34,167 nucleotides of DNA. It comes from a virus. Of the stretch, positions 1 through 29,211 are shown piece by piece (the first letter of the stretch is position 1; the number at the start of each line of letters is the position of its first letter). The stretch is from positions 1-34,167 of IMG/VR virus record IMGVR_UViG_3300037673_000020; one strand, 5' to 3'. The notes under the pieces were generated by a model that was not told the origin of the DNA, did no database searches, and worked only from the letters and a program-made list of their open reading frames with translations. Position numbers and translations under genes: made by a program.

Positions 1-27
1 GACTATGAGTTTCCATGTTTTTATCAT
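1..27 (-). CDS. Possible start of the next leftward gene (partial)
   Basis: The TGA of the Com-like gene shares its last base with an ATG at 27-25 (TGATG). That ATG opens a frame reading MIKTWKLIV to the window edge. An AAGG lies about eight bases upstream. Only nine codons are visible, so no function can be given. In phage Mu the gene after com is mom, but nothing here shows this is a mom homologue. Confidence 0.3.
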
Positions 28-215
28 CAGTTACCTTCTCTTTCGATAAGTTCCTTGAGTTCATTTACATTGAAGTATTCCAAAATCAGCCCTTTTTGGA
101 CTATTTCAACTACGTTCAAAACCTTGCACCGGGGACAGAGAAGCGATACCGTCCCGGCAGCTATCTTATAGAGCAACAAAACACGGCGGCATTTCCTACA
201 TCGAAGTTCCTCCAT
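27..215 (-). CDS. Com-like zinc-finger protein
   Basis: A 62-residue protein with CxxC at residues 6-9 and a second CPRC about 18 residues later, followed by VLN. This layout (LRC.KC, then a hydrophobic stretch, then LLCPRCK.LN) matches the Mu Com family, small zinc-finger RNA-binding proteins; in Mu, Com activates translation of mom. The ATG is preceded by AGGAGG. It is the last complete gene of the glycosyltransferase operon, nine bases after the double glycosyltransferase. Family assignment rests on the cysteine pattern; the role here is inferred. A general zinc-ribbon protein is the alternative. Confidence 0.72.
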   Translation of the reverse strand: MEELRCRKCRRVLLLYKIAAGTVSLLCPRCKVLNVVEIVQKGLILEYFNVNELKELIEREGN

Positions 216-224: not shown

Positions 225-2516
225 CTATCTCTGATTAAAGCGATTATGCCGGTAATAAACCTGCTCGATGGCCTCGGCTATCACCCTGGCGCAATCCTCC
301 CAGTTGAAATCTTCGGCCCTCTTGAGGCTGGCCTCGCTCATCTTAGCCAGTATATCACCCTTTTCCCTTAAGCGCAAGAGGAGCTGCGCCAGGTCGGTAT
401 AGCTTATCTGAGCCAGCCTCACCCCGGTATGCCAGTGGGTGATGGCCGAAGGCTTGAGCAGGACGCCCACATCCGGGGTGACGATTTCATTGCGCACCCC
501 ATCGTAGGTAGCCACGATGGGGAGGCCGCAGGCCATCGCCTCCACCAGCGGCAGGCCGAAGCCCTCGACGCTCTCCGGCGCCACATAGAGGTCGGCGCAG
601 TTATACCTCTCCACCAGGCCATAGCCAGCCATCGGATGGATGGCCCCCTCTATCACGCCGGCCTCCTTGACGCCATACTCTTGGGCGAAGAGCACTGGCG
701 GAAATCTCACCATCCCCCGCAGGTTGTAGGACTCGGCCAGGTGGAGCAGGGGTATCGGCTGATAGCCGCTCTTCTCGATGGGATTGGTGTGGATGTAGAA
801 GAGGAAATCGGTATGCCCTCGCGAGGCCAGCCAGCGGGCCGCCTCTATCAGGATGCCCTGGTTGGAGGTGCGCTTGTTACGCTTGACATTCATCACCACG
901 AAGAACTTATCCAGCCCAGCCTGCTCCCGAAGCCTGCGGCGCTCCTCCTCCGGAAGCCTCCTGAAGACCTCCCTGTCCACGCCATGCCATGCCCACCGAA
1001 GGCGGATGGCCCCAAGGCCGAGGGCCTTCCCGGCCATCTCAAACATCTCCACGCCCCACTGCGTGTAGGTGATACACTCTCCTCCCCGCGCCTTGATGCT
1101 GCTCGCCATCTCCAGGAAGATACGAGGAATCGGAATGCCCTCGATTGGAAAATAAACCACCACCGGCCACTCGCTGATTCGCTGCCATATCTTCTGAACG
1201 GTGCCTGGGTCATAGTTGATATAGATTACATCTGGTTTGTAAAAGTCCAAGAATTGCTCCAGCATGTAGAGGCCGCTGGGGTCGTACTCGCATGGGCGCC
1301 AGACCGGGAAGGGGTCTTCCATCGGGCGCGGACATGTATCCAGCATCCCGATGGCCGCCAGCTCGAAGCCCCACTCCTGCCAGTACCGGGAGACGTTCTT
1401 CGTCACCACCCCGAAGCCCGTGGTGAGCGTGGGGGAATCGGACAGGATGGCGACCTTTATCCTCTTCGGCTTGACGGCGGGCCAGATTTTCGCCCTGTCG
1501 CCTCCGATAATCACACGAGGCTCCTCCAAAACCTCGACGAGCTGGCGGCCAATCACCTTCAGGTCATACTCCTTGGCTTTCTGCCGGAGGGCGGCGGCAT
1601 ATTCCACCCTAAACGCATCATCGGTGCATAGCCTCCTTAGCCTCACTAACGCCTCCTCTTTTGTTCCCCAAGTCAAAGCGCCGCCCTCCGGCATCCCACC
1701 CGAATCGTGCACCAACGCGGCCACTCCAGCGGCCATCGCCTCCTCGACGATGATGCCCCTGTGCTCGGCCATGCTTATATCCTGGGCCTCGAAACCAGTG
1801 GCCGAGAAGAGGATGGAGGCCCTCTTCATGAGATTGATATAATCCTGGCGGCTCAAGTCGTGGTGGAAGTAGATGGGCTTCCTGATGGCCTCTGCCTGGC
1901 GCTTGATGCGCTTGAAATAGTCCTCATGCTGCACGCTGCCCACCAGGTGAAGCTCCCAGCCGGGGACATCTAGCTTCTCGAACAACTCCAAGGCCACATC
2001 GTGGCGCTTGTTGTTGCCGGATGGCACCTCGAAGAACCTCCCCACGACCAGGATGATTTTCTCTTTCTCGCCTGGAGGCTGAAATTCCCCCCAGTTGATG
2101 GGCGGATAGATTACGATGGCGTCATCTCTATTCCACCTCTTCGAGACCGCCCAGGCGCAGAACTTGCTGTTAGCGATGATGACCTGATAATCGCTCACAT
2201 CCCAGCGATATTGCGGGAAGAAAGTGACCAGGACGTTCAGCCTGGCTAATCCCCCATACTTGATAAAATGGGAGATATTGATAAAGACATCGAACTCCCT
2301 GGGGTCGTAGACGCCTGAATAGACCCAGCGGGTGTTGCTCAAGTCCAGGCCATAGTCCTCCCTGGCTTTGTCGAACATGGGCAGGACGCCACGCTCGACG
2401 ACGGCCAGGACTTCGTAGTGCTCGTCAAGGGCCTTCAGGAAGGAGAAGGTGTGATATTCGCCTCCGCCATATCCTCCCTGAGCGCCTACATGCCCGCAAT
2501 AGACCATCAGTTTCAT
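225..2516 (-). CDS. Tandem two-domain GT4-type glycosyltransferase
   Basis: A 763-residue protein made of two GT-B glycosyltransferases in one chain. The first (about 1-345) opens with a glycine-rich GAQGGYGGGE segment typical of GT4 acceptor domains, has VVGRFFE near 157 and an EEAMAAG sugar-nucleotide motif near 260. The second (about 355-755) restarts with KVAILSDSPTLTTGFG, has VMNVKRNKRTSN near 560 and VEGFGLPLVEAMACGLP near 670, the usual E(x7)E donor-binding region. Such enzymes transfer sugar from a nucleotide-sugar to a growing glycan in the cytoplasm. Its ATG overlaps the stop of the preceding small gene (ATGA). Two active domains would suit two consecutive additions; substrates cannot be read. 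Confidence 0.9.
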   Translation of the reverse strand: MKLMVYCGHVGAQGGYGGGEYHTFSFLKALDEHYEVLAVVERGVLPMFDKAREDYGLDLSNTRWVYSGVYDPREFDVFINISHFIKYGGLARLNVLVTFFPQYRWDVSDYQVIIANSKFCAWAVSKRWNRDDAIVIYPPINWGEFQPPGEKEKIILVVGRFFEVPSGNNKRHDVALELFEKLDVPGWELHLVGSVQHEDYFKRIKRQAEAIRKPIYFHHDLSRQDYINLMKRASILFSATGFEAQDISMAEHRGIIVEEAMAAGVAALVHDSGGMPEGGALTWGTKEEALVRLRRLCTDDAFRVEYAAALRQKAKEYDLKVIGRQLVEVLEEPRVIIGGDRAKIWPAVKPKRIKVAILSDSPTLTTGFGVVTKNVSRYWQEWGFELAAIGMLDTCPRPMEDPFPVWRPCEYDPSGLYMLEQFLDFYKPDVIYINYDPGTVQKIWQRISEWPVVVYFPIEGIPIPRIFLEMASSIKARGGECITYTQWGVEMFEMAGKALGLGAIRLRWAWHGVDREVFRRLPEEERRRLREQAGLDKFFVVMNVKRNKRTSNQGILIEAARWLASRGHTDFLFYIHTNPIEKSGYQPIPLLHLAESYNLRGMVRFPPVLFAQEYGVKEAGVIEGAIHPMAGYGLVERYNCADLYVAPESVEGFGLPLVEAMACGLPIVATYDGVRNEIVTPDVGVLLKPSAITHWHTGVRLAQISYTDLAQLLLRLREKGDILAKMSEASLKRAEDFNWEDCARVIAEAIEQVYYRHNRFNQR

Positions 2517-2734
2517 GTTACTGTCTCCGGCTTGTATGGAGAGTAGGAGGCCCGCACGTGCACCTTCAGGGGCTCACGGGCCATCACCTCCAGTAGAGGC
2601 ATCCGCCGCCCCTCCTTATCATAGATAACGATGCTGAACAGCTCCTCGGTATCCAGGGGCGTGAGGTCAACGTGATACTCCCACTCGCCGTGGGCCTGGT
2701 CGTATGAGTGCCACTCTCCGAGTTTTACTGCCAT
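2513..2734 (-). CDS. Small hypothetical protein in the glycosyltransferase operon
   Basis: A 73-residue protein (MAVKLGEWHS...) with charged and hydrophobic stretches and no motif I recognise. An in-frame ATG eight codons earlier would overlap the upstream gene more, but GAGGAATT sits about eight bases before the chosen ATG and leaves a 10-base overlap with the GT2 gene. The end overlaps the double glycosyltransferase as ATGA, so the three are probably translationally coupled. The predicted short beta strands (EYHVDL, FSIVIYD, LKVHVRA) would suit a small beta-rich accessory domain. Function unknown. Confidence 0.62.
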   Translation of the reverse strand: MAVKLGEWHSYDQAHGEWEYHVDLTPLDTEELFSIVIYDKEGRRMPLLEVMAREPLKVHVRASYSPYKPETVT

Positions 2735-3435
2735 AACAATTCCTCTTCGACATAACATGATGGAAGCCTGCGGACGGCATACTTCCGTCCGGTCAGGTCG
2801 CCCGGCTTCTCGAAGCCGGAGCCATACATGGATAGATATTGCGATTCCTTCTCGGCCAGCCGCTTCTCATCGAGCCAGCCGAGATGGAGGATTCCCACAT
2901 TGAAATCGGCGATTTCATCGTCGAGAAACTCGATTAGCTGCCCGCCGGATAGCTTCATCACGTGCTCGTGCACCTGTCCCACCCATCGCAGCCTCTCATC
3001 AGCCCTCCACACCCTCGGCCAGGTCTCCCATCCCCCGTGAGAGGCGGCGTAGTGAGACTTGTCGCTGACAATATTGTATTGCTTGACCCTCACCGCCACA
3101 ATCTCAGGCGGGAGATTTCGCAAAGCCTGCCTGAACCACGATTTGTACCGTGCGGGAAAAATCTCGTCGCTGTCAATCCTCATCCACCACCACTCCTCGC
3201 CACGCGGGGCGTGGTCAAATGAAACCTGTCTTTGCAACGCAAAGTGGCCTGGCCACTTGTGCTCAACGAGTTTGATGTTTAGGATGCCCTTTTGCCTATG
3301 GATGATATTCAGCGTCTCGTCCTGAGAACCGCCGTCCACAATGGTCACGTGATTTGCCAGGCCATGAAGCGACTTCAGACACGCCAGCAGGGTATCTTCG
3401 TTGTTCAGGACTATCATCGTGACAGCTAATTTCAT
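2725..3435 (-). CDS. GT2-family glycosyltransferase
   Basis: A 236-residue GT-A glycosyltransferase. It opens with KLAVTMIVLNNEDTLLACLKSL, the first beta strand and helix of the family, then VTIVDGGSQDET, the nucleotide-binding region, and MRIDSDEIF near residue 87, which supplies the DxD-type metal ligands. The tail from about 200 holds ADFNVGILHLGW. The length suits a minimal GT2 domain with no membrane helix, so it should be cytoplasmic. The ATG overlaps the stop of the upstream GT2 gene (ATGA). It resembles enzymes that build surface or lipopolysaccharide-type glycans; the sugar is unknown. Confidence 0.88.
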   Translation of the reverse strand: MKLAVTMIVLNNEDTLLACLKSLHGLANHVTIVDGGSQDETLNIIHRQKGILNIKLVEHKWPGHFALQRQVSFDHAPRGEEWWWMRIDSDEIFPARYKSWFRQALRNLPPEIVAVRVKQYNIVSDKSHYAASHGGWETWPRVWRADERLRWVGQVHEHVMKLSGGQLIEFLDDEIADFNVGILHLGWLDEKRLAEKESQYLSMYGSGFEKPGDLTGRKYAVRRLPSCYVEEELLWQ

Positions 3436-4184
3436 TTGGCTAACTCCGGGTACTTCTTGATGAGCTTAAGCCAGTTGGGATGGGTCTGGCCCGGATGCTC
3501 CCTATCGAACCGCCTGAGCACCCTATCACGCCAGGAGCCCTGGCTCTCGCTATCGTCCACCATCATCGGGATGCCGTTCGCCAGAACGACCTCCCCTCCT
3601 GCCTCGACAAGGCGGATGCCGAAATCCCTGTCGGCGAAGCCCATGCTTAAATCAAACTCCTCGTCAAAGCCGCCCACCTTCTCCACAAGCGAGCGAGGAC
3701 ACGACATCCCGGCGCTTGTGACCCAGGAGGCCGGCCCCTCCCGACGAATCTCAAACGGGATGAGGTAGTAATGCTTGGCGACCCTATTGGCGAGATGAGG
3801 AACCAATACACAATTCGGAATAAAGGCATGGTATAGCTGAATAAGGAAGAGCGCGTGGGGGTGGAATATCAAATCATCGTCGAGGAAGAGGATAACGTCG
3901 TTATGGGTATGGCGGATGGCTATATTGCGGGAGCTATAGACCCTGGGAAGGTCATCGGGGTGACGCTCGCGATAGATGTACTCGGCCTTGAAGGGGAGGG
4001 AGCCCCAGTCTATGGAGAAACCCACCTGGGGCTGCGAGCCATCGTCCACCACGCAGCAGTCCAAATGCTCGAATCTAAAGAAGAGCTGCTCCGAGAGCTG
4101 GCGGACGACCCTGGCGAGGGATTGAGGGCGATTATAGGTGGCTATCACGACGCTAATGCTCGGAAGCTCTAACGTATACGGCAT
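3432..4184 (-). CDS. GT2-family glycosyltransferase
   Basis: A 250-residue GT-A enzyme starting MPYTLELPSISVVIATYNRPQSLARVV. CCVVDDGSQ is the nucleotide-binding turn and VILFLDDDLIF gives the DxD metal site. GGFDEEFDLSMGFADRDFGIRLVEAG matches the acceptor-side ED/DRD region of the family. The frame stays open far upstream, but that stretch is arginine-, glycine- and proline-rich, overlaps another gene on the same strand and looks like a shadow. The chosen ATG has GGAGG eight bases before it and overlaps the upstream stop as ATGA. Substrate unknown. Confidence 0.9.
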   Translation of the reverse strand: MPYTLELPSISVVIATYNRPQSLARVVRQLSEQLFFRFEHLDCCVVDDGSQPQVGFSIDWGSLPFKAEYIYRERHPDDLPRVYSSRNIAIRHTHNDVILFLDDDLIFHPHALFLIQLYHAFIPNCVLVPHLANRVAKHYYLIPFEIRREGPASWVTSAGMSCPRSLVEKVGGFDEEFDLSMGFADRDFGIRLVEAGGEVVLANGIPMMVDDSESQGSWRDRVLRRFDREHPGQTHPNWLKLIKKYPELAK

Positions 4185-5218
4185 CACTTCTCCTCCAGTA
4201 ACGCTAAATACTGACTGGCTAATCGCCTCCCGGCCATCTCCGAGGACAGAAGATTTACGGCCCGATGTCTGTTGAACACCCCCATCCTCTGCTGAAGGAC
4301 GGGGTCTGAGAGGATGAGCTGGAGGCGCTCGTGTAGAATATCCCACCGCCTGCATGGGATGATGAAGCCCCCCTCCGGCCTCACTATCTCGTGGAAGGCG
4401 CCGACGCCGGTGGTGATGACCGGCAGTCCCGAAGCCATAGCCTCGGTCACTGCCACCCCCCACTGCTCGACCCAGGCCCTCAGAGGGTCGTGGGAGAGGA
4501 GCGGGAGGCTCACCAGCACGAATACAGTGGCCTCCTGATAGATGCCCGGCAAATCCTCGTGGGGCACAGCCCCCAGGAAGCGGGCGCTCACCTCGTATTC
4601 CTCGGCCATCTGAGCGAAGACATCTATCCGCCCATCGCCGACGACCCAAAGCTCGGCATCCAGCCCGGCCATCGCCCAAATCAGGTCTTGGATGCCCTTC
4701 TCCAGGGTCACGCGGGCCACGGTGAGCACTACCCTGGTATCGGGCACAAAGGGCAGTGGCGCAAACATGTCGGTATCCACCCCTGGGGAGATGACCCGGA
4801 TTTTATCCTTCGGCACGCCCTCCAGCAGGAGGACGTTGGCGGCCATGCTGCTGCGGGCGATATAGAGGTCGAAGGCGCCCTGCCAGGCCAGCCCTCCCGT
4901 CTGCCTGTTCTTTCCGGGGAGGTTATCGAAGCAGGAGCACACCAGGCGCGTCCCCGGCTCGGCCCTGGACGCGCAGTACCGCGTCAGGGCATAGTGGAGG
5001 TCGGGCAGGTCTAGGATGGTCGGCTCAAGGGATAAGACCTCATCCGGGTGCTTCCAATAGACCATCTCGGCACCCTCCATCCTCTCGCCGCCCCTCAGCT
5101 CCACGGCGATGATGACCTCGGCCTCGACGCCCTCCCGCTCCAAGGCGTCGGGTAGCGATTGATAAGTCATAAGGTCATGCGGGCTAAACTTGTCAGGGCG
5201 AGCGATTACGATACGCAT
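4184..5218 (-). CDS. GT4-family glycosyltransferase
   Basis: A 344-residue GT-B protein. KIRVISPGVDTDMFAPL near residue 140 is the classic inter-domain GV(D/N)xxxF motif of GT4 enzymes. VVLTVARVTLEKGIQDLIWAM opens the donor-binding domain, and TEAMASGLPVITTGVGAFHEIV near 265 is the E(x7)E-type sugar-nucleotide site. No membrane helix or signal is visible. The start overlaps the stop of the upstream GT2 gene, whose last codon is next to this ATG. It would add a sugar from a nucleotide-activated donor in the cytoplasm; donor and acceptor cannot be told. Confidence 0.92.
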   Translation of the reverse strand: MRIVIARPDKFSPHDLMTYQSLPDALEREGVEAEVIIAVELRGGERMEGAEMVYWKHPDEVLSLEPTILDLPDLHYALTRYCASRAEPGTRLVCSCFDNLPGKNRQTGGLAWQGAFDLYIARSSMAANVLLLEGVPKDKIRVISPGVDTDMFAPLPFVPDTRVVLTVARVTLEKGIQDLIWAMAGLDAELWVVGDGRIDVFAQMAEEYEVSARFLGAVPHEDLPGIYQEATVFVLVSLPLLSHDPLRAWVEQWGVAVTEAMASGLPVITTGVGAFHEIVRPEGGFIIPCRRWDILHERLQLILSDPVLQQRMGVFNRHRAVNLLSSEMAGRRLASQYLALLEEK

Positions 5219-5919
5219 CAGGCTCCTTTCGTCCCGTTATGGCCCTCTTTGTCGGGCCGTAAGGTGAAATGATAGACGACGGCGGTGGAGTATCCCACCT
5301 TGAAGCCGGCCCGCTGGGCAGCTCGGCAATACTCACGGTCGCTGCCGATATGGGGATAATTCTCCTCGTCCAGAAGGCCCACCTTCTCTAGCACGTCCTT
5401 GTGTATCCCCATCACGGCCCCGGTGACCCACTCATACCAGTTACGGCAGCGCCTCGGCTCGAAGTAGCTGATATTGGGCTGCCTCATCCCGTAGTGGAAG
5501 CCCTCCCCATAAGCTCCGGCGTGGTCAATCCTCCCATCGGCGGTGAGGGTCTTGCAGCCGACGATTCCCCACCTCAAGACCTCGGCCTGCCCCACCATAA
5601 TCTCGGCCCATCCAGGCGTGACCTCGGTATCGGAATTGAGGAGGATAAACCAATCATATCCCCCATCCTGCCGGGCCAATCTCAGGCCCTCGTTGCACGC
5701 CTGGGTGAACCAGAGACGCCTCTCCACGAGCCTTCCGGTGAGGCGATTGAAATTATCCCCTAACCAGCGGATGAGGCCCTCGGTCTCTGTATCCGTCTCC
5801 CCTGAGACGATGTAGGCGTGCCAGGGGAGACAGGTGTGGAGATAGAGGGATTCCACACAGGCGGCCAGGTGCATGGCATCCTTATAACTGGGAATGATGA
5901 TAGCGACATTTCTCACCAT
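5218..5919 (-). CDS. GT2-family glycosyltransferase
   Basis: A 233-residue GT-A enzyme. MVRNVAIIIPSYKDAMHLAACVESL begins the fold, DWFILLNSDTEVTPGW carries the DxD-type site (NSDTE), and VTGAVMGIHKDVLEKVGLLDEENYPHIGSDREYCRAA matches the acceptor region of rhamnosyl-type GT2 enzymes. Upstream in-frame residues are low-complexity and lie inside the preceding GT4 gene, so the start is set at this ATG, which overlaps that gene by seven bases; a GTG directly after it is an alternative. It may build rhamnose-like glycans, but that rests on family resemblance only. Confidence 0.9.
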   Translation of the reverse strand: MVRNVAIIIPSYKDAMHLAACVESLYLHTCLPWHAYIVSGETDTETEGLIRWLGDNFNRLTGRLVERRLWFTQACNEGLRLARQDGGYDWFILLNSDTEVTPGWAEIMVGQAEVLRWGIVGCKTLTADGRIDHAGAYGEGFHYGMRQPNISYFEPRRCRNWYEWVTGAVMGIHKDVLEKVGLLDEENYPHIGSDREYCRAAQRAGFKVGYSTAVVYHFTLRPDKEGHNGTKGA

Positions 5920-6884
5920 ACGAGACCCGCCTTCACCTTCTCGGCCAGCTTGATGTACTCCCCCGCCATGCGCCAGTGATTGAACCACGAGACGGAGCGG
6001 CGACACTCATAGGGATTTATCTCGTCAATGTGGCTCAGCGCATAGGCATAATCATCGAGGCTATAGCAGATGTAGCCATTGCGCCCGCTCTGGATGTACT
6101 CCGGGAGGCACCCATTATCGCTCGCGAGCACCGGCGTCCCGCAATGGAGTGCCTCCAGGACGATTATGGCCCCCGCCTCGACCCATCCGGTACCGCCCAC
6201 CGGGTGGATTAAAGCCTTCGCCCTCATGATAAGCTCCAGCTTCTGCTGGCCGCCCACATCCCCCATGTAGATTATCTTGTCGCTGTCGAGATGGGGCTTG
6301 ATGGCGTTTCTGAAATACTCCGGCACCCAGGCAGGCCCGCAGATGATGAGCTTATGCCTGCACCTCTTCGCCACATCAATGGCGATATGGGCCTGCTTCT
6401 CCGGGATGACGCTCCCCATGTAGAGGAGATAGTCCTCCCTCTCGCCGAGGTAGAGAGGATACTCCCCGGCGCGGATGCCATAGTAAATCACCTTCGCCTC
6501 CTCCATCTTGAGGTGGCGGCGCTGAGCATAGGAGATGCAGACGACGTTATGGGGCCAGGAGAGGCTCATGACCTGATAGACGTTTATCGAGGGGAAGTTG
6601 GGCCAGAGCCTCGGAATCACCTTGTCGTGGCTCATGTCAATCAGGGCATCGAGCCTCTTGTGCCACTCGCCCGCCGCAAAAGCGTGGGCGAACTGACGCT
6701 CCGATAGCGTGACGGCCTCCAGCTTCCCGCCAGGCGGGGCCTTGGAGCCCTCCTTGGCGAAGAGTGTAACATTATGTTGCATTTGGGAGAGGGCGCAGCA
6801 AAGCCACCAGGCTATCCGCTCAATCCCCCCATAACGCTCAGGCGGCGTGGGTATCGCCGCCGTGGAAATCACTCCTATTTTCAT
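5913..6884 (-). CDS. GT4-family glycosyltransferase
   Basis: A 323-residue GT-B enzyme. MKIGVISTAAIPTPPERYGGIERIAWWL has the glycine-rich acceptor-side loop (YGGIE) of GT4 enzymes. DYLLYMGSVIPEKQAHIAIDVAKRC begins the donor domain, and GAIIVLEALHCGTPVLASDNGCLPEYI holds the sugar-nucleotide site. It resembles the family that includes UDP-glucose:tetrahydrobiopterin-type and many exopolysaccharide transferases. The chosen ATG overlaps the stop of the small gene before it (ATGA) and has GGGAGGGCGGAGG upstream; earlier in-frame residues are arginine- and glycine-rich and look spurious. Confidence 0.9.
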   Translation of the reverse strand: MKIGVISTAAIPTPPERYGGIERIAWWLCCALSQMQHNVTLFAKEGSKAPPGGKLEAVTLSERQFAHAFAAGEWHKRLDALIDMSHDKVIPRLWPNFPSINVYQVMSLSWPHNVVCISYAQRRHLKMEEAKVIYYGIRAGEYPLYLGEREDYLLYMGSVIPEKQAHIAIDVAKRCRHKLIICGPAWVPEYFRNAIKPHLDSDKIIYMGDVGGQQKLELIMRAKALIHPVGGTGWVEAGAIIVLEALHCGTPVLASDNGCLPEYIQSGRNGYICYSLDDYAYALSHIDEINPYECRRSVSWFNHWRMAGEYIKLAEKVKAGLVW

Positions 6885-7132
6885 CCTCCGCCCTCCCCTT
6901 TCGAGAAGGGCAGCAGTTGGTCTGCCCCCTCGTCCTCCTCGATGGCCTCGTCGCAATGGCCGGGGTCAATCAAGTCCAGCAGCCAGCAGAGCCACTGGTA
7001 AGGTGGAACTTTGTCCCTGAACTTCCCCAGCCGGGAGGAAATCGTCTCATCAGGGTCGCCGAGGAGGATTGCATTGAGAAGCTGGTCGAAAGCTGTGCAT
7101 ACATTTATGATATACTTCTTTATCTTACTCAT
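6881..7132 (-). CDS. Small phage protein with DETISSR motif
   Basis: An 83-residue protein. FDQLLNAILLGDPDETISSRLGKF followed by W..WLLDLIDPGHCDEAIEEDE resembles a group of small phage proteins of unknown function that I recall sitting near lysis genes. The N-terminal third is hydrophobic enough to be a weak membrane-associated helix. GAGGTGAG lies just before the ATG, two bases after the stop of the lipoprotein gene. Its neighbours, a lipoprotein and a 37-residue membrane peptide, fit a lysis or envelope group. Function is unproven. Confidence 0.68.
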   Translation of the reverse strand: MSKIKKYIINVCTAFDQLLNAILLGDPDETISSRLGKFRDKVPPYQWLCWLLDLIDPGHCDEAIEEDEGADQLLPFSKGEGGG

Positions 7133-7133
7133 C

Positions 7134-7436
7134 TCACCTCAGTATCTTTATACACCCTAAGAACTCTGTGCGGAAACCGAATTGACACACCAAATCTATC
7201 CTCCTGTGCCTGGTGAAGGTAATCAAAGGGCCGCGATGCCTGCCCACCACGAAGGTGAAAAACCAGGCATCGCATGGCACGTTCGGCCTATCCAGCTCTA
7301 TCCGCAGCCAATACTCGCCGCTTCCCCGATAGACCCTCTCGGATAGCTTCCAGTAAAACCTATACGTCGAGAGGAGCTTGCAGCCAGAGGCCACAAGCAG
7401 GGAAGCGATGAGCGCAATTAAGATTAGCCTTCTCAC
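7134..7436 (-). CDS. Small putative lipoprotein (GTG start)
   Basis: A 100-residue protein, missed if only ATG starts are used. The GTG at 7436 overlaps the stop of the membrane peptide as GTGA, so translation is probably coupled; no Shine-Dalgarno site is seen. The N-terminus VRRLILIALIASLLVASGC is a lipoprotein signal ending in a lipobox with Cys19 as the lipidation site. The rest is basic and beta-rich (YWLRIELDRP, WFFTFVVGRHRGPLITFTRH). Position and overlap recall the outer-membrane partner of phage spanin pairs, but the upstream gene is too short for a normal inner partner, so spanin is only a possibility. Confidence 0.6.
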   Translation of the reverse strand: MRRLILIALIASLLVASGCKLLSTYRFYWKLSERVYRGSGEYWLRIELDRPNVPCDAWFFTFVVGRHRGPLITFTRHRRIDLVCQFGFRTEFLGCIKILR

Positions 7437-7546
7437 GGCGATTTGAGGCTCAAAAACAGGAGCACTATAAAGACTGCGAGCGAGCCTAAGCCCACTCCCA
7501 AGCCGAACGCCCCGATGACCACAAACCAACACGGAGCACCAAGCAT
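7433..7546 (-). CDS. 37-residue single-span membrane peptide
   Basis: An ATG with GGGAGGTGAGAT directly upstream opens a 37-codon frame (MLGAPCWFVV...LSLKSP). Nearly all of it is hydrophobic, with several glycines (GAFGLGVGLGSLAVF), so one membrane helix is predicted. The stop overlaps the GTG of the lipoprotein gene. It lies between a glycosyltransferase and that lipoprotein. A tiny holin-like or anchor function is possible but cannot be shown. Confidence 0.6.
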   Translation of the reverse strand: MLGAPCWFVVIGAFGLGVGLGSLAVFIVLLFLSLKSP

Positions 7547-7549
7547 ATC

Positions 7550-8332
7550 TCACCTCCCGTATTTTACTACTGGGTTGACCCAGCCCTCGTTGGGATTCTT
7601 TCCCACAATCTCGGCCAGCTCCATGTTCACCGAGGAGGTGAATCTCTTTAGCTCCTCGGTGGTCATGGCCGCAAGCTCGTAGACGGTGGGTATCCTCCTC
7701 TCCGGGGGAGCTTTCTTATTGTAAATCCCCAGGCCATACCACTTCTTCCGCCCGATTTCATGCCATTTCATATCTAAAAGGAGCTTATTTCGGGCGGAGT
7801 AGGCATGGTAAAAAGGAGGCTTCTTGCTGTAATCCCTCGGAGGATGGAATACGCTGACACGCGGGTCAACCAACACCCGATAACCACGCCACTCTATCTC
7901 ATATCCCAAGTCCAAGTCAAACCACTGCGTAAAGATAAAATCCTCATCGCACAGCACCTCTGTCTCCAGGCGGATGACGCCGGCGATGCCATCAAACCAC
8001 TTCGGAAAGGGGGAGGCCAACGGCTTCCGAGGCTCTCCCTCCCTGTTCGGCCTGATGAGGCCGACCTCCGGATGGCGGGAGATGTAGTTTAACATCGTCT
8101 CAAGATACTCCTGATGAACTATCTCCACATCGCAGTGGAGAAAGTGGACGAATGTGGCCTTCGTCATCTTGAGGACGGTGTTCCACACCCTCGGCTCGTG
8201 GTTCAGCTCCGGCCACCAATAAACCGGGAAGCCGGGGTAGAGAGACCGCAGGCGGTTCTCCAATCTCTGGGCCCTCTTCTTGTCCCATCCTAAGATGCAT
8301 ATAGAGCACAAAGGGCTAGGTCTCTCCGCCAT
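7550..8332 (-). CDS. GT2-fold glycosyltransferase-like protein
   Basis: A 260-residue protein with a GT-A layout: PLCSICILGWDKKRAQRLENRLRSL at the start, ATFVHFLHCDVEIVHQEYL near residue 80 with a C-D-V-E site where DxD is expected, and WFDLDLGYEIEWRGYRVLVDPRVSVFHPP near 140-170, the region after the catalytic site in GT2 enzymes. The metal site is unusual (HCDVE instead of DxD), so activity is uncertain. GAGGAGG is almost touching the ATG. The start overlaps the upstream Cys-rich gene by 17 bases. Probable member of the same glycan pathway. Confidence 0.78.
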   Translation of the reverse strand: MAERPSPLCSICILGWDKKRAQRLENRLRSLYPGFPVYWWPELNHEPRVWNTVLKMTKATFVHFLHCDVEIVHQEYLETMLNYISRHPEVGLIRPNREGEPRKPLASPFPKWFDGIAGVIRLETEVLCDEDFIFTQWFDLDLGYEIEWRGYRVLVDPRVSVFHPPRDYSKKPPFYHAYSARNKLLLDMKWHEIGRKKWYGLGIYNKKAPPERRIPTVYELAAMTTEELKRFTSSVNMELAEIVGKNPNEGWVNPVVKYGR

Positions 8333-9190: not shown

Positions 9191-9211
9191 CGCAAACCTC
9201 GGCTATGAAGT

Positions 9212-9259
9212 GCTATGGGCATGGCATGGCAACAATCGCCTCTATGCCATGCCCATAGC
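9212..9259. repeat. Perfect 16-bp inverted repeat
   Basis: GCTATGGGCATGGCAT at 9212-9227 is exactly mirrored at 9244-9259, with a 16-base loop. No T-run follows on the leftward strand, so it is not a standard terminator. It sits in the leader of the beta-rich gene. It could be a processing or attenuation hairpin, or an operator. Just beyond it, at 9274-9296, ACTTCTCGATT occurs twice in tandem. Confidence 0.7.
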
Positions 9260-9284
9260 CTTTGCCTTTAAGCTACTTCTCGAT

Positions 9285-13751: not shown

Positions 13752-13789
13752 ATTCTCCCTCCTTTTATTGTTTTTGTTTCTTAGATTCT

Positions 13790-14401
13790 TTAGAAAGGTA
13801 TATACAGCTCCCATTCTCTACCTCCTTCTTTTTGTAATATTCCAAAGCCATAGGCCCAGGGAATCTCCAGCGACATGGAGACATCCTTCCGCGTCCTCCA
13901 CTGCTCGAAGACCTCCCTGGGGCCGCCCGGCCCTGGTAGATAGACTATATCGTGAAGCACGGCCCAGCCTCCATCCGAGAGCAAGTCCCAGGCCATAGTG
14001 AGTTCGAGCCTGACCCTATCGGCGTGATGGTCTCCGTCAATGTAGATGAGGTCAGCCCCGCCCTCCATGCAGGCCAGGAACTCCAGGCTATCCATGTGAA
14101 AAAACTTCCACCTGCTCTTCCAATTGAGCCGTAAAGAAGAAACGGCCTCGCTACAGTCCTCGATGTCGCAACTGTAGAGAAGGCCGTTTGTAGTCCGCAG
14201 TGCGGTCAAAAACATCAGTGTCGAGATACCTTCCCCGACACCAATCTCATAAACAACTTTAGGGCGACAGGCCAGACAGAGTAGATAAATCGTCAGCGCA
14301 TAGTCCAAGCCAGCGCCCCTTGCAACCACCTCGCTCAGCGAGCGAGCAAGAGGATATATTTGTCTTTGGCGCTCTTGTAGCTCAGTTAAGTCTACTACCA
14401 T
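13790..14401 (-). CDS. Class I SAM-dependent methyltransferase
   Basis: A 203-residue Rossmann methyltransferase. VVYEIGVGEGISTLMFL at about 49-65 is the SAM-binding motif I, LLYSCDIED follows with the acidic residue of motif II, FFHMDSLEFL is motif III, and ADLIYIDGDHH near 117-126 with WAVLHDI near 146-152 match the Methyltransf_24/cephalosporin-hydroxylase-like group. Many members modify sugars or small molecules. It is the first gene after the consensus promoter at 14575-14603 and lies next to the secreted chimera. The ATG is chosen because upstream in-frame residues are arginine-rich and fall in the leader; GGGAGC precedes it. Substrate unknown. Confidence 0.85.
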   Translation of the reverse strand: MVVDLTELQERQRQIYPLARSLSEVVARGAGLDYALTIYLLCLACRPKVVYEIGVGEGISTLMFLTALRTTNGLLYSCDIEDCSEAVSSLRLNWKSRWKFFHMDSLEFLACMEGGADLIYIDGDHHADRVRLELTMAWDLLSDGGWAVLHDIVYLPGPGGPREVFEQWRTRKDVSMSLEIPWAYGFGILQKEGGREWELYIPF

Positions 14402-14425
14402 AGGCGCTCCCAAGATGATATTCCA

Positions 14426-14456
14426 AGTGGGGCGGCGCCCGGCTCGCCGCCCCACT
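14426..14456. repeat. GC-rich 11-bp inverted repeat in the methyltransferase leader
   Basis: AGTGGGGCGGC at 14426-14436 pairs perfectly with GCCGCCCCACT at 14446-14456 around a nine-base loop. On the leftward transcript it lies about 25 bases before the methyltransferase ATG and lacks a following T-run. It could block ribosomes, stabilise the message or take part in attenuation. A second, weaker hairpin (GCAGCC/GGCTGC) lies close to the predicted transcript start. Confidence 0.6.
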
Positions 14457-14574
14457 ACCAGAAAGGAGGAGAAAGATGAACGGCGCGGCCCCCTGGAGGC
14501 TGCTCGCAACCTGCCTGCAACCAATATCCCTATCGCAAGGTGAAAATCGCAGCCCCTCCCTGGCGGCTGCTGTT

Positions 14575-14603
14575 ATTATATCACAAATCAGTAAAATTGT
14601 CAA
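14575..14603 (-). promoter_or_regulatory. Consensus sigma70 promoter for the leftward glycan operon
   Basis: On the minus strand TTGACA (14603-14598), a 17-base spacer and TATAAT (14580-14575) match the consensus exactly. Transcription should begin near 14568, leaving a leader of about 165 bases before the methyltransferase gene. The -35 region reads GATTTGACAATTT, similar to the TGACAAAT elements near the other consensus promoters in the window. It lies directly downstream of the terminator that ends the head-gene transcript. Confidence 0.85.
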
Positions 14604-14730: not shown

Positions 14731-15726
14731 TTAGCCTATCCAGGCATCCCATTCGCCTCTCTCGAAGGGAAGCTCATACTCCGCCTCATCGTCAATGGGC
14801 GTCTCGTCGTCCCCAAGGGGAACGAGCCAGCAGCGGCAGTTGGAGAGGCAGGCCCTATTCCCAGGGCGAACGTCGAGCAGCTCTATCCCCCGATGGATGC
14901 GCCCTATCTCCTGAGCGCACCCATTCGGCCCCCGGCAGGTATGCCTGTCGAGCCAGCCGACCCAGAGGAAGAGCTTATCGGCGAAGGCCACTGGCGCGTC
15001 GGGATAGTCGGGCACGCCCCATTCCTCTGGCGGACGCCACATCTCGATATGCCAGGGGATGATGGCGGGAAAGGCCCACTTGACCTCCGGGAGCCCCCTG
15101 AACCTTTGAGCCTTCCTGCGCCGCTCCACAGGTGGCCTCCTGAGCACGGCCTGCTGAATGGCGGCCCAGAACGCGCCGCTGTACATGCCCGCCCGTGAGC
15201 GCAGGGCCAGCAGTCCCTCGGAGAGGGAGCGCCTTCCCCTGCGGGCCTCCATGATAATATCCCACAGGGCGTAGGAGAGGCCATCCGGACGCCGGAGATA
15301 GTAGCGATTATGGGCCACCTCCCATTGATGGGCCATGAAGTCCTCCCGGCTCCAGTGGACGCTGCCCTTGCCGAGCGTCCAGGCCAACGCCAGCCAGTAC
15401 CAGGCGGCGCGGTCGAAGTAGCCAGCGAGGGCTTCGAGATAGTCCCTCAGCTCCGTCTCAGGCACAGCGCGGGCCGACTCCCCGGCGCGGGCCACCATCG
15501 CCCTGGAGAAGTCGTCATAGAGGCCCAGGAGAAGCTCCTTATAGCGCCTCTCGGCCATTGCCCAGTCCTCCCGCAGATAGCGGGCTGGCTCTGGCACCTG
15601 CCGCCGCTCCAGGAGGAGGGAAAGAAGTTGCTCAAGCGCCTCTTGGAGGCGTCGGGGAGCCTTTGGATAGAGACGTACCAGTCTCATCCAACGCTCCCTC
15701 TGCATGGAGAAGTCCGATGGCTTCAT
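14731..15726 (-). CDS. Minor head / head-morphogenesis protein (Mu F or SPP1 gp7-like)
   Basis: A 331-residue protein directly after the portal. The first 250 residues are mostly helical and charged. Near 255-310, WLDRHTCRGPNGCAQE ... RPGNRACLSNCRCWL gives the D.HTC..C and CxxCRC signature of the phage Mu F/SPP1 gp7 minor head family. Members bind the portal and help assemble or exit the head. The ATG has GGGGAG eight bases upstream and lies 95 bases inside the portal gene, an unusually long overlap. It is followed by a terminator. Family assignment rests on the cysteine motif and gene order. Confidence 0.8.
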   Translation of the reverse strand: MKPSDFSMQRERWMRLVRLYPKAPRRLQEALEQLLSLLLERRQVPEPARYLREDWAMAERRYKELLLGLYDDFSRAMVARAGESARAVPETELRDYLEALAGYFDRAAWYWLALAWTLGKGSVHWSREDFMAHQWEVAHNRYYLRRPDGLSYALWDIIMEARRGRRSLSEGLLALRSRAGMYSGAFWAAIQQAVLRRPPVERRRKAQRFRGLPEVKWAFPAIIPWHIEMWRPPEEWGVPDYPDAPVAFADKLFLWVGWLDRHTCRGPNGCAQEIGRIHRGIELLDVRPGNRACLSNCRCWLVPLGDDETPIDDEAEYELPFERGEWDAWIG

Positions 15727-17149
15727 TTATCAACTCCCCTAAGACTCCGGTGGCCCTGTCCAGGGCGCCCACCATATGCACCGGAATCTTCAGTATTTTC
15801 GCAAGCTCGGTGAGGGCTATCTCCCCCAGCTCTGGATGCTGGGCGTTAATGGCCGTCTGGAGGACGTTATAGAGGACTCTCCTCTTCAGGCTGAAGAGGG
15901 GGTTGTGTCGGACATAGCACTCCGGCGCCCTTTCCCCGAAGTGGTCTACCACGAGCTGCCTCACGGCGTATTGATTGACGTAGGAGAGAAAGTCCAGGGC
16001 GAGGGTATCGCAGGCCGTGAGGTATGCCTCCAGGCGTCCGAGGCCCTCGTAATACGTGCGAGCGCCGCCGCGCTCAGGAGGGGTCTCGACGCAGACGAGC
16101 CCCCGCAGGATTTCGTCGTTGAGAGCCTCGATGCCGCGAGCGTAGAGGTCGCCCCGCCCGGTCACGTCGAGCTGGGTGATGTCCCAGAGCTTGTTGCCCC
16201 GGTCATCCCTCACCATCGGCATGGCGAGGGTGGTGAATTCATCAGTCTTGTGGAGGCGGTCTCCAAGCCACTGGAGGTTATCCACCTCGTCGCCATCCTC
16301 GTTGGTGGAACGGCCCGGAGGGGCCCAGCCTATCTTCGTCGGGGCGGCGTGCTTGCTGTAGTAGAGCATCCTCATGACCCATAGCTTGCACTTGAAGAAC
16401 CAGGGCGCGTAGACGTGATTGAGGGCCGGCTCGCCCCAGAAGCCAGCCCGCAGGAAGTTGTGGGGATAGAGCCAGGCTTTCCAGGCCGGGACGTGTACCT
16501 TGTCAAAGCCCTTCTTCTGATAATAACCATTGAAACTACCATCCTCTGTGAGGGGAAGGCTGGGCACAATCGTTGTAATCTTATTATACCTGAACTCCTT
16601 ATAGACCAGGGCCGGCCCGTCCCAGACGACCTCTCCATCCCTCTCGACGTGGATGTCCCTCACCTCCCATATCTTCTCGGCGAAGGCGGCGCCATCCACG
16701 AGCGCCTGCATCGCAATCTCCGTCAGCCGCCAGAGGTGCGGCTTGACGAAGACCTGCTTGACGAACTCAGCGATATTCGGGTCGCTGCATTCTACGAACG
16801 CCTCCTCCATCGCCGCCTTCACCGGCGCTGTCTTGATGGTGAGGCCATAATGGACGATGGGGTCTTTCCTCATCCTTTCGAGCGTCTCGTAGTCAATATC
16901 CTTGGCCTGATACTCCTCGGCCAGGATATTAAAGAGGGCCCTGTCGCCCCGGTAGGTGAGGGTAGCCAGGCGAGCGTCCTCCCGCCCCTTGATGGCGTCC
17001 CAGGCTTTCTGAAGGCGTCGCCTCCATGTATCGGGCTCGGCACTCAGCCTGGCGAGGTCGCTCCTCACAGCCCTCGTCAGCACGGGCCCCAGCGCCCTTG
17101 CCACGTCCTCCGGTATCTCCACAGTCACGGTTCTGTTTCTCATGCCCAT
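15632..17149 (-). CDS. Phage portal protein
   Basis: A 505-residue protein between the large terminase and the minor head gene, the standard position for a portal. Features that fit are an early DYETLERMRKDPIVHYGLTIKTAPVKAA stretch, a mid-protein HKTDEFTTLAMPMVRDDRGNKLWDITQLDV segment, and a helical C-terminal stem and crown with LGELINEA. Portals form the ring through which DNA enters the head. A start at 17143 would give an ATGA overlap with the terminase; the ATG at 17149 has AAGGAG five bases upstream. It may belong to the DUF935/Mu gp29-like group, which I cannot confirm. No prohead protease or scaffold gene is visible next to it. Confidence 0.82.
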   Translation of the reverse strand: MGMRNRTVTVEIPEDVARALGPVLTRAVRSDLARLSAEPDTWRRRLQKAWDAIKGREDARLATLTYRGDRALFNILAEEYQAKDIDYETLERMRKDPIVHYGLTIKTAPVKAAMEEAFVECSDPNIAEFVKQVFVKPHLWRLTEIAMQALVDGAAFAEKIWEVRDIHVERDGEVVWDGPALVYKEFRYNKITTIVPSLPLTEDGSFNGYYQKKGFDKVHVPAWKAWLYPHNFLRAGFWGEPALNHVYAPWFFKCKLWVMRMLYYSKHAAPTKIGWAPPGRSTNEDGDEVDNLQWLGDRLHKTDEFTTLAMPMVRDDRGNKLWDITQLDVTGRGDLYARGIEALNDEILRGLVCVETPPERGGARTYYEGLGRLEAYLTACDTLALDFLSYVNQYAVRQLVVDHFGERAPECYVRHNPLFSLKRRVLYNVLQTAINAQHPELGEIALTELAKILKIPVHMVGALDRATGVLGELINEAIGLLHAEGALDETGTSLSKGSPTPPRGA

Positions 17150-18822
17150 TTCAGCTCCTTAGCTCTATTAGTTGACGAGCGAATACTCATCGGCAGCCCC
17201 CAGTTCATCTCGCTCCTCTCCAATCGCCTCTTGTTGAGCATAAAGGCCCCGAAGCCTATATCCCTCGGCCCCCTCACCTCTATCTCCTGGAGGGTGAAAT
17301 TGAAAAAGCGATTTTTGAGAATTTGCCTCAGACGCGTCACGGCCAGCCAGTAGGCCATGAGCACGTCATCCGTCTCGCCACGAGGCCACATGTGCATCTC
17401 GTAGATGAGCAGGTCGGTCAACTTGCGCGAGCGCTCATCTCCTCTGGGGATGACGTTGCGCTGCTGCTCCGTCAGCGTCGAGAGGGCAGGGATGCCGGTC
17501 TCAAAGCTGCGATTCACGTCCTGGCCCGTCCAGTGGGGAACGATTATCATTCCGCTCTCCTTCGGCAGACTCTCGATGAAGTAGCCCTGGAGGGCATTCT
17601 GCTCGATGACGATTTCGCTGTCATAGCGCCTCCAGATGTCCACGATTTTCTCCCACTGCTCCAGAAAGCGGGCCCCCTGCTTGCGGTAGATGTCGAGCCA
17701 GTAAATCTTCCCGTCTCTATCCACACCTAACGTCACGGCGGCGAAGTAGCTCTTGCCCTTCCCCTTGAGAGCGAGAGCCGGGTCTACCCCCGTGACCTTC
17801 ACCAGCTCCGAGGTGTGGTGTTCAATGGGCAGCACCATCGTCTCCCGGAACTGACGCTTGATGAAGTCCATCGGGAAGTGGCTCTCCTCCTCGGACATGG
17901 GTCGGAGGAGATAATTGAGGTTGAACTGGACGAAGCCCTGGTCTCGCCTCATCTTCATCAGTCGCTCCCAGCTCCAGCGCTCCGGCCAGAGGACTATCTT
18001 CTTCTCGAAATTGAGGATGGCGGGGCTCTCGAAGACCTTGAAGTCCTCCCGTTTGACCAGCTCCGAGTATGGGTCGAAGAGGGCCTTGCGGGTGCCGACG
18101 ATTATCTTCTGACCCTGTGGCTCGACCATCGAGAAGCTATCCTCTATCCAGCGGAGGGTTTTGTTGGCCCGGTAGCGAGTGGCGCAGTTATCGGGATTGC
18201 AGACATCATCGTAGATGACATATTCGGCGTGAGGGCCCACATTGCTGGAGCCGACTCCCAGCGTCAAGACGGTCTTGTCCTTCTCGATGAGGATACGGCC
18301 CGTGTGGTCTGTGGGCCTCCTCCTCACGGTGATGTGGTCGGTTCCCCATCCCCTATCTTGAGGGAGCTTGAAACCTTCGTAGCCCTCCCGAAAGGCGTCG
18401 CGATGGCTGAACCCCTCGACGATATAGGGATTGAACTCCAGATGGGCTTTAATGGCCGAGAGGAAGGACTGGGCCTGCTCCGCCACGCTGCTCAGGATGA
18501 TGAAGCGGGAATTGCGGTCGCAGCATATCCTCCACGTCGGGTAGAAGATGGAATGTACCGAGGATTTCCCGTGGCCGCGAGCCGTGAGGTTGATATATGT
18601 CGGCTCGGCCACCAGTAGCCAATACCACCCATCCGGCACCTTCTTGTGGAAATCCGGGATGGGAAGAGGGGGCCTGATGAAGCGCTCCACAAACATAAGC
18701 AAACTCTTATGATGCCAGATGGCCCGGTCGTGGCTCCAGGCCGGATATTCCAGCCCCTTCTTGTAGAGGGCTAAGACCAACTCGGCCCAGAGGGCCACCT
18801 TGTCCTTATCGTAGTTTGTCAT
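17140..18822 (-). CDS. terL: Terminase large subunit
   Basis: A 560-residue packaging motor. Walker A is ARGHGKSS at 81-88, Walker B YVIYDD at 201-206, and the coupling segment follows with VGTRKALFDPYSE. The C-terminal RNase H-like nuclease shows D347 (VTGVDPA), E407 (IVIEQNA) and D485/D486 (GETDDVLMA). It cuts concatemeric DNA and pumps it into the prohead through the portal. All expected catalytic residues are present and the length is normal. Its start overlaps the previous gene by 17 bases and its stop overlaps the portal start. Confidence 0.95.
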   Translation of the reverse strand: MTNYDKDKVALWAELVLALYKKGLEYPAWSHDRAIWHHKSLLMFVERFIRPPLPIPDFHKKVPDGWYWLLVAEPTYINLTARGHGKSSVHSIFYPTWRICCDRNSRFIILSSVAEQAQSFLSAIKAHLEFNPYIVEGFSHRDAFREGYEGFKLPQDRGWGTDHITVRRRPTDHTGRILIEKDKTVLTLGVGSSNVGPHAEYVIYDDVCNPDNCATRYRANKTLRWIEDSFSMVEPQGQKIIVGTRKALFDPYSELVKREDFKVFESPAILNFEKKIVLWPERWSWERLMKMRRDQGFVQFNLNYLLRPMSEEESHFPMDFIKRQFRETMVLPIEHHTSELVKVTGVDPALALKGKGKSYFAAVTLGVDRDGKIYWLDIYRKQGARFLEQWEKIVDIWRRYDSEIVIEQNALQGYFIESLPKESGMIIVPHWTGQDVNRSFETGIPALSTLTEQQRNVIPRGDERSRKLTDLLIYEMHMWPRGETDDVLMAYWLAVTRLRQILKNRFFNFTLQEIEVRGPRDIGFGAFMLNKRRLERSEMNWGLPMSIRSSTNRAKELKWA

Positions 18823-19282: not shown

Positions 19283-19311
19283 TTGACAAATTTAGCAAAA
19301 TATAGTATAAT
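19283..19311 (+). promoter_or_regulatory. Consensus sigma70 promoter, rightward
   Basis: TTGACA (19283-19288), a 17-base spacer and TATAAT (19306-19311) form an exact consensus promoter facing right, about 50 bases before the first rightward gene. The -35 box sits inside ATTTGACAAAT, a small palindrome that could be an operator. It directly abuts the ATG of the leftward small-terminase gene. Confidence 0.88.
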
Positions 19312-20480: not shown

Positions 20481-21260
20481 ATGAAAAGAGACTATCTATC
20501 GAAGAGGTTTTCCATCCCGCTGTGGGCGCTCCTTGCGATTCTTGCCGTCTGCATCGTCACCCTGACGATACCGGATGAGGGGTCGTATTACCACAAGCGG
20601 GAGCTGGAGGAGGCCACTCCTCCCCCGGCTTTCCTGGAAGTCGAGGCCCCTGGGGAGGTAGAGTCTCGCCTGATTGGTATTGACGTGAGCCAGTATCAGG
20701 GCGAGATAGATTGGGAGAAGGTGGCGGCCAGCGGAGTGCGCTTCGTCATCATCAGGGCCACGATGGGGCTGGGCGGCACCGACCCCAACTTCATCTCAAA
20801 CTGGGAGGGGGCTAAGAAGGCGGGTCTCCTGGTGAGCGCTTATCACATTTTTTTCCATGATGAATCGCCCGTAAAGCAGGCACTCGCCTTCGTCCAGGCC
20901 CTCGATGGGAGGGAGCCGGATTTCCCCCTGGCGCTGGATGTGGAGATTCCGGCGCGGGGGAACTACGGCGCCCAGCTAGAGGATATGTGCCTTACAATGG
21001 AGATACTCACGGGCCAGAGACCCATGATATACACCGCCCAGTATATTTGGAACACTAACGTGGGCTGGGGCCCGAAGTGGCATCTCTACCCGCTATGGGT
21101 GGCGGACTACGATGCCGCCGCTCCCGCCATGCCCGATGGCTGGGAGAGGTGGAGCATCTGGCAATACTCCAATAAGGGCCGCATCTCCGGGATAGAGGGC
21201 CACGTAGACCTCAACCTCTTCGAGGGAACTGAGGAGGAGCTGAAGAGGCTCGGAGAATGA
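20481..21260 (+). CDS. GH25 lysozyme (endolysin) with N-terminal membrane anchor
   Basis: A 259-residue enzyme. Residues 11-30 (SIPLWALLAILAVCIVTLTI) form a membrane or signal-anchor helix, followed by a proline-rich linker. GIDVSQYQGEIDWEKV begins the GH25 barrel with D68, and LALDVEIP near 151-157 gives the D-x-E pair (D153, E155) that catalyses peptidoglycan cleavage in this family. WSIWQYSNKG and VDLNLF close the barrel. The anchor suggests export by the host pathway, perhaps as a signal-arrest-release endolysin. A strong GGAGGGG precedes the ATG, and the stop overlaps the sulfotransferase start. Confidence 0.92.
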   Translation: MKRDYLSKRFSIPLWALLAILAVCIVTLTIPDEGSYYHKRELEEATPPPAFLEVEAPGEVESRLIGIDVSQYQGEIDWEKVAASGVRFVIIRATMGLGGTDPNFISNWEGAKKAGLLVSAYHIFFHDESPVKQALAFVQALDGREPDFPLALDVEIPARGNYGAQLEDMCLTMEILTGQRPMIYTAQYIWNTNVGWGPKWHLYPLWVADYDAAAPAMPDGWERWSIWQYSNKGRISGIEGHVDLNLFEGTEEELKRLGE

Positions 21261-21796
21261 AACGGGCTTATCTGGTCTTTGGGCCCGAATCCAGCGGCAC
21301 AAGGCTTATGACGCGCATCCTGATTCTGGCAGGATGTCAGGGGTCATGGGGGCACTATCAGCATTATGACCACCATTTCCCAAAGGACAGCCCGATAGTC
21401 TGGCGGCGCAGTGTCCCCCACGCAAGGCAATGGCCGGATATAGTGGACATGGTGACGAGCCTGCGCAATGCGGGCTATTCGGTAAAGGCTGTCGTTACCA
21501 CCAGGCATTGGTGGCCCATGATTTGCTCCCAGGTAAAGGCCGGCTATGTCCCATGCTTAGATACTGCTCGCAAAAATGTCAGAAGGGCATACCGTCACAT
21601 CTTCAGCTCATTGGAGCAGGCCAATGTAGAGTACGTTATCGTCAGCTATGAGGCATTGGTGGAAGAGAGGGGGCCAGCAATAAAGGCTATACTTAATGAA
21701 TTGCAACTGCCCTCTTCTGCCGACATTGAGGTCGTAACAGAAAGGATTTTGAAAGAGATAAATCTGATAAATGCAAATCAAAAGCATTACCGCTAA
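21257..21796 (+). CDS. Sulfotransferase-like protein
   Basis: A 179-residue P-loop protein. AYLVFGPESSGTRLMTRILILAG near residues 4-26 has the GxxxSGT(R/S) phosphate loop that binds PAPS in sulfotransferases. VKAVVTTRHWW near 78-88 could carry the 3'-phosphate-binding Arg, and VEYVIVSYEALV near 124-135 matches the second substrate-binding strand. It would sulfate a glycan or other acceptor. Its start overlaps the lysozyme stop. It is shorter than most family members but the core is complete. A related kinase-like P-loop enzyme cannot be excluded. Confidence 0.75.
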   Translation: MKRAYLVFGPESSGTRLMTRILILAGCQGSWGHYQHYDHHFPKDSPIVWRRSVPHARQWPDIVDMVTSLRNAGYSVKAVVTTRHWWPMICSQVKAGYVPCLDTARKNVRRAYRHIFSSLEQANVEYVIVSYEALVEERGPAIKAILNELQLPSSADIEVVTERILKEINLINANQKHYR

Positions 21797-28573: not shown

Positions 28574-28627
28574 TTTATCTTTCTCCTTTCTGGCTATATA
28601 ATGAAAAGACAGCATGATAGAAAAGTG

Positions 28628-29167: not shown

Positions 29168-29211
29168 TCTACTCTCCTTTTCTGGCTTTTGTCTCATAAT
29201 GTTACATATAT

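Follow-up and report, generated by a model that had tools for sequence, protein, structure and literature searches.

A seven-gene glycosyltransferase island conserved in a tailed-phage lineage and its predicted role in virion-protein glycosylation

The DNA analysed here, which we call the window, is linear and 34,167 bases long; it is an IMG/VR virus record (IMGVR_UViG_3300037673_000020) and an unclosed fragment. Positions 225 to 8332 of the window carry, on the minus strand, a block of seven glycosyltransferase (GT) genes encoding eight domains, four of the GT4 family and four of GT2 type (Table 1). This is the count proposed by an earlier note made from the sequence, and it is borne out by Pfam matches, by catalytic motifs and by orthologues in a distantly related phage, G013 (IMGVR_UViG_3300035698_017730, 37,325 bp). 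In order of transcription the genes are GT2d, GT4c, GT2c, GT4b, GT2b, GT2a and GT4x2. Pfam gathering cut-offs are passed by six of the seven products, the exception being GT2d. The E-x7-E motif of GT4 enzymes and the acidic motifs of GT2 enzymes are present in the window and conserved in G013, where the GT4x2 orthologue retains both of its E-x7-E motifs. A GT4c profile matches solved GT4 enzymes over their full length, the best being 2iuy (E = 8.9e-36). The GT2d relative in G013 gives the same weak family match and shares conserved D-x-D/E-like motifs; an AlphaFold model of GT2d was too poor for use (predicted local distance difference test score, pLDDT, 50), and Foldseek returned zero matches to it below an E value of 0.001.

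The genes of the block are tightly packed. Of the ATGA overlaps that had been described, three are present (at 6884, 3435 and 2516), while two other junctions are TGATG (5218 and 4184) and the GT4c/GT2c and GT2a/o81 boundaries are short overlaps of other kinds. The ATGA and TGATG overlaps make translational coupling likely. None of the GTs of the window or of G013 contains a transmembrane-like segment, and the codon usage of the GT genes is that of the phage core. Recent tandem duplication was considered as the source of the array and rejected, since the seven GTs are strongly divergent from each other. Inserted within the block (7134-7546, minus strand) is a 37-amino-acid (aa) open reading frame (ORF) with one transmembrane segment (7433-7546) that overlaps, through GTGA, a 100-aa lipoprotein-like ORF (7134-7436); the two ORFs, which recall a spanin pair or else an exclusion lipoprotein, are absent from G013. 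Upstream of the block, between two small genes, lies a very stable hairpin without a T run (9195-9290, minus strand; -42 kcal/mol).

Table 1. Features of the window. Percentages are identities to the G013 counterpart, from BLAST for the GTs where a single value is given.
Feature	Coordinates	Strand	Evidence	G013 counterpart
Com-like zinc ribbon, directly downstream of GT4x2	27..215	-	phrog_6417 4.7e-7	34%, same place
GT4x2, two fused GT4 domains, 763 aa	225..2516	-	PF00534 2.7e-32 in two stretches	50% over 783 columns
o81, hypothetical protein of 81 aa encoded between GT2a and GT4x2	2513..2758	-	ATGA overlap with GT4x2; no Pfam match	
GT2a, candidate protein-priming GT2 (GmaR/SunS-like)	2725..3435	-	PF00535 6.4e-9	48%
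GT2b, GT2	3432..4184	-	PF00535 4.3e-14; L049 orthologue 54-55%	51%
GT4b, GT4	4184..5218	-	PF00534 7.9e-26	46% (46-48%)
GT2c, GT2	5218..5919	-	PF00535 4.1e-11	52%
GT4c, GT4	5913..6884	-	PF00534 8.2e-18	56%
GT2d, divergent GT2-type protein	7550..8332	-	PF13712 below cut-off, 21.2 vs 27 bits	49% (48-49%, 254 residues)
Methyltransf_24 protein, possible glycan O-methyltransferase	13790..14524	-	PF13578 9.7e-18	37%
Perfect sigma-70 consensus promoter, upstream of methyltransferase/GT block	14575..14603	-	12/12 matches, 17-nt spacer, extended -10	
Protein in gpF (head morphogenesis) position	14731..15726	-	after portal	32%
Portal, Mu type	15632..17149	-	PF06074 9e-11	54%
Terminase large subunit (TerL)	17140..18822	-	phrog_38 1.6e-63	52%
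GH25 endolysin	20481-21260		window phage hallmark	
Sulfotransferase-like P-loop protein	21257..21796	+	Pfam 0.025-0.03, below every cut-off	23%, within island
N4/N6 DNA methylase	22948-24255		window phage hallmark	

Comparison of the block with related phages, which the earlier note had suggested, was made possible by G013, a distant relative found through a DNA methylase scan. G013 encodes full-length counterparts of all seven GTs, six of them collinear with the window and the seventh, GT2b, relocated beside the gene in the F position. (This last name is positional, because the window protein has no Pfam hit of its own and follows the portal.) Across the GT genes, identity between the two phages is 63-72% at second codon positions and only 35-39% at third positions, and the portal gene shows the same pattern, indicating that the GT proteins are under purifying selection and that conservation of the set roughly equals that of the packaging core. 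L049, the third relative, is a 14,067-bp fragment (TerL 51% and portal 55% identical) that carries a GT2b orthologue (54%) downstream of its F-position gene, and the contig ends shortly past it. GT2b identities place the three phages at nearly equal distances (51-55%), while TerL puts G013 and L049 nearer to one another (67%), a mismatch which could reflect recombination or faster evolution of GT2b in one of the phages. Directly upstream of the L049 orthologue (10464-12104 of that contig) we observed a C5-cytosine DNA methylase that appears to contain an HNH-endonuclease-like insertion.

Other searches yielded few relatives. Single-protein scans of IMG/VR with TerL, the portal and three GTs matched only a twin contig (L004, IMGVR_UViG_3300037598_000406), which is 100% identical to the window over the compared stretches; two genome scans, with TerL and with a 1363-aa protein of the window, gave zero matches; and a DNA pattern for a terminase motif matched nothing besides the twin and L012, an unrelated contig. 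An alignment of TerL from four phages proved too divergent for searching. INPHARED holds no close relatives of the tested GTs, and searches with five GTs found no sequence relatives in mycobacteriophages. We also counted matches to PF00534 and PF00535 over 27 phage or viral records, mostly picked by terminase or methylase similarity. The window has 7 matches, the twin 7 and G013 8; every other record has at most three and most have zero. This agrees with the earlier statement that phages usually carry one or two such genes, although a census so small and chosen by similarity is a yardstick and gives no frequency.

In G013 the island lies among head genes. On its upstream side are the portal and F-like genes; downstream are a Com-like zinc ribbon, a Mu I-type protease (PF10123), a small protein in the decoration position and an E-type major capsid protein (PF03864, 1e-20). 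Since portal, protease or head genes and capsid stand close together in two other phages of the same capsid type, the G013 island interrupts a head operon. It also contains two TOD1/MUCI70-type GTs, an extra GT4, an epimerase, a radical-SAM/SPASM protein, a cytidylyltransferase-like protein, a Methyltransf_24 protein somewhat similar to rhamnosyl O-methyltransferases and a sulfotransferase-like protein. The seven shared GTs, together with the methyltransferase, the sulfotransferase-like protein and the epimerase, support and strengthen the earlier proposal that the phage genes may specify a glycan pathway with possible methylation and sulfation. In the window, genes are transcribed leftward from 19282 to the first base and on through the twin, which reaches 5.7 kb past window position 1.

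The methyltransferase that had been grouped with the block is present and lies outside it, about 5.5 kb upstream and past the gene for the 1363-aa protein; its G013 counterpart also matches PF04989 (rhamnosyl O-methyltransferase/CmcI). The sulfotransferase that had been placed elsewhere in the window survives as a candidate with sub-threshold Pfam scores that resembles a protein of the G013 island, and its link to the GT block is only putative; its AlphaFold model was too poor for use (pLDDT 41). The Com-like protein scores 22.0 bits against Pfam Com, just under the 22.9 cut-off. In Mu, Com activates translation of mom, a DNA-modification gene. No mom lies next to the Com-like gene: the gene that follows matches SprT weakly (0.044) in the twin and encodes the protease in G013. 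The 1363-aa protein (9723-13814, minus strand) starts with a signal-peptide-like N-terminus and contains DUF2341 and LamG domains; inspection by eye adds parts that resemble cohesin, dockerin and a hydrolase.

A perfect sigma-70 consensus promoter stands ahead of the methyltransferase and GT genes (Table 1), and a terminator-like hairpin (14677-14651) precedes it. Perfect promoters of the form TTGACA-(17/18)-TATAAT number 12 in the three related phages, compared with 0.02 in shuffled sequences. The other three in the window are at 19283-19311 (plus strand), 29212-29241 (minus) and 29861-29889 (plus). Most of those in the window, G013 and L049 have an extended -10, and they serve structural and rightward units alike. 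Those of G013 include one ahead of the F-position/GT region, another ahead of the GT4x2-Com pair and a third ahead of the protease-capsid genes. The phage's own regulon thus seems to include the GT block, though the block can be transcribed independently of the head genes.

We propose, with moderate confidence, that the block encodes a conserved core pathway, vertically inherited within this phage lineage, that glycosylates a virion protein in the cytosol and to which each phage adds decorations of its own. Soluble, translationally coupled GTs expressed from the phage-type sigma-70 promoter would act in the host cytosol on host nucleotide sugars. GT2a would place the first sugar on a phage protein, since its catalytic domain is closest, among solved structures, to GTs with protein acceptors: a two-sequence profile of GT2a and its G013 orthologue matched GmaR (1.1e-9) and SunS (9.9e-8), followed by 5tze (8e-5), which we take to be TarS, a wall teichoic acid GT. 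SunS is also the top NCBIfam match of GT2a, far below the cut-off. GmaR is a flagellin O-GlcNAc transferase and SunS a peptide (bacteriocin) S-glycosyltransferase of the SPbeta prophage, and both act on their protein or peptide acceptors in the cytosol. The remaining six enzymes, with seven domains, would lengthen the glycan step by step, and capping would be phage-specific, by the methyltransferase in the window and in G013 also by the sulfotransferase-like protein, the epimerase and further GTs. The acceptor would probably be a head or tail virion protein synthesised at the same time.

Several observations weigh against this proposal. The likeness of GT2a to GmaR and SunS is remote (E values of about 1e-9 and 1e-7) and confined to the catalytic domain, with TarS as the next match. 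The 5.7 kb beyond the Com-like gene in the twin contig contains zero capsid genes, so that the window phage's own capsid genes lie outside the known sequence, and the separate promoter behind a terminator-like hairpin means that co-expression of the window block with head genes is not required. The genes, their conservation, the purifying selection on them, their place in the G013 head operon and their lack of transmembrane segments are direct observations, from which we infer the order of action, the protein acceptor, the location on the virion and the structure of the glycan.

Several known systems bear on the proposal. Virion glycosylation occurs in the mycobacteriophages Che8, Corndog and Myrna (Freeman et al. 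2023, as reported in PMC12363180 and PMC12619734), where phage-encoded soluble GTs are thought to modify the phage's own capsid and tail-tube proteins. Those accounts describe few GTs per phage, as opposed to the seven-gene conserved head-operon island described here. Chlorovirus PBCV-1 (PMC7826918) has a virus-encoded cytoplasmic pathway with a multidomain GT, a methylated sugar and a conserved core glycan bearing virus-specific decoration, which may parallel the shared core and extras of the window and G013; PBCV-1, however, is a eukaryotic virus with a proven glycan structure, and the parallel drawn here from genes is by analogy only. Clustered GTs near structural genes are also found in the host-recognition clusters of tailed pelagimyophages (PMC7029224), but those clusters are hypervariable, lie in large T4-like genomes and have GT8 as the most represented family, whereas the GT4/GT2 set is conserved like packaging genes. 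The Gtr seroconversion operons (gtrABC; PMC3688519) are likewise phage-borne GT operons that, however, need the flippase GtrA and membrane GTs. We rejected the Gtr model because the GTs of the window and G013 have no transmembrane segments and GtrA was not found: PF04138 matched none of four records, which are incomplete contigs, and its control matched in 7 genomes.

The earlier note had left virion, DNA and host surface side by side as targets; these can now be ranked, with a virion protein first, though the choice is not decided. The strongest alternative, which we nonetheless consider unlikely, is that the GTs build or modify a glycan of the host envelope (O-chain, teichoic acid, capsule or S-layer) and so block adsorption of other phages or re-binding of progeny to debris. 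Separate transcription leaves room for it: a strong promoter behind a terminator-like hairpin is moron-like, the GT2a and GT2b profiles also give weaker matches to two wall teichoic acid enzymes, TarS and TarP, and the several GTs of marine pelagimyophages have been interpreted in this way (PMC7029224). The neighbouring secreted 1363-aa protein and the lipoprotein-like ORF also suggest an outward function, but unlike the GTs neither has a counterpart in G013, where the island stands inside the head operon. Moreover, no GtrA flippase, membrane GT or initiating polyprenyl-phosphate transferase was found (PF02397 matched none of the same four incomplete records; its control matched in 9 genomes).

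Glycosylation of a modified DNA base, shielding phage DNA from restriction, is in our judgement distinctly improbable. Phage GTs capable of base glycosylation are known in T4-like phages (reviewed in PMC12619734), a C5-cytosine methylase lies directly upstream of GT2b in L049, and a Com-like protein follows GT4x2 in both the window phage and G013. The C5 methylase is, however, present only in L049 and absent from the window, the twin and G013, and no base-hydroxylating enzyme was seen among the Pfam-scanned genes of these incomplete genomes. A TET/JBP search was negative, but its positive control also gave no match, so this negative is not decisive. GT2a also resembles protein GTs, and the epimerase and methyl- and sulfotransferase-like genes fit a longer glycan.

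There is only a slight chance that the enzymes act on a secreted phage protein that is not part of the virion, for example the 1363-aa LamG/DUF2341/dockerin-like protein. By position it belongs to the same transcription unit and it has a signal-peptide-like N-terminus, and a similar DUF2341/LamG region lies within the tail-gene region of Methanoculleus virus Blf4. Its G+C content (0.46) and codon usage are, however, foreign to the phage, and the G013 contig has no counterpart even though it keeps all seven GTs, indicating that this protein is not a conserved acceptor. Finally, a host-chromosome origin of the block, next to a prophage remnant, the case named at the outset as refuting, can be rejected despite the unclosed contig, unless unrelated contigs were mis-assembled alike, because phage structural genes flank it (portal and F-like, and in G013 protease and major capsid), an overlapping contig is 100% identical, a divergent phage has the same genes in the same neighbourhood, and GT codon usage is that of the phage core.

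Some further features were observed away from the block. A GHKL ATPase (HATPase_c_3; 27152-28615, minus strand) with, by eye, a metalloprotease-like HExxH C-terminus is partnered by a helix-turn-helix protein (28628-29197, minus strand); both are low in G+C with foreign codon usage, and the sole PADLOC result for the pair is a weak match to TmtA. Small rightward genes are interspersed with three to four copies of a repeat that is GC-rich and partly palindromic (30646-30731, 31570-31634, 32686-32768 and 34141-34165), and at 29589-29721 AAACTAGAGTGC-like 12-nt tandem units lie beside inverted repeats, possibly an origin or a regulator-binding array. Rfam and tRNA scans of the sequence gave zero matches. 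Beyond window position 1 the twin (12490-18185 of L004) encodes a weakly SprT-like protein, several membrane-associated proteins and, by eye only, a carboxypeptidase-like protein and a truncated glycoside-hydrolase-like ORF; this region has no similarity to G013.

GT genes in phages are commonly interpreted as single, exchangeable accessory genes, whereas here a seven-gene set is kept about as faithfully as terminase and portal. The earlier observation is right and, given this conservation, understated. Virion glycosylation by phages is already known; a conserved seven-GT island inside a head operon is, within the evidence searched, new. Candidates can now be named for the priming enzyme, for the acceptors (the G013 major capsid and decoration-position proteins) and for the phage-specific capping enzymes. 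We suggest more tentatively, and with some doubt, that the vertically inherited structural genome of this tailed-phage lineage may encode, in full, a cytosolic pathway that puts a conserved core oligosaccharide of roughly eight sugars on the capsid, decorated differently in each phage; if true, this would be a bacteriophage counterpart of chlorovirus capsid glycans. Retention of all seven GTs between divergent phages, in the manner of terminase and portal, suggests that the predicted glycan is part of the basic biology of the lineage.

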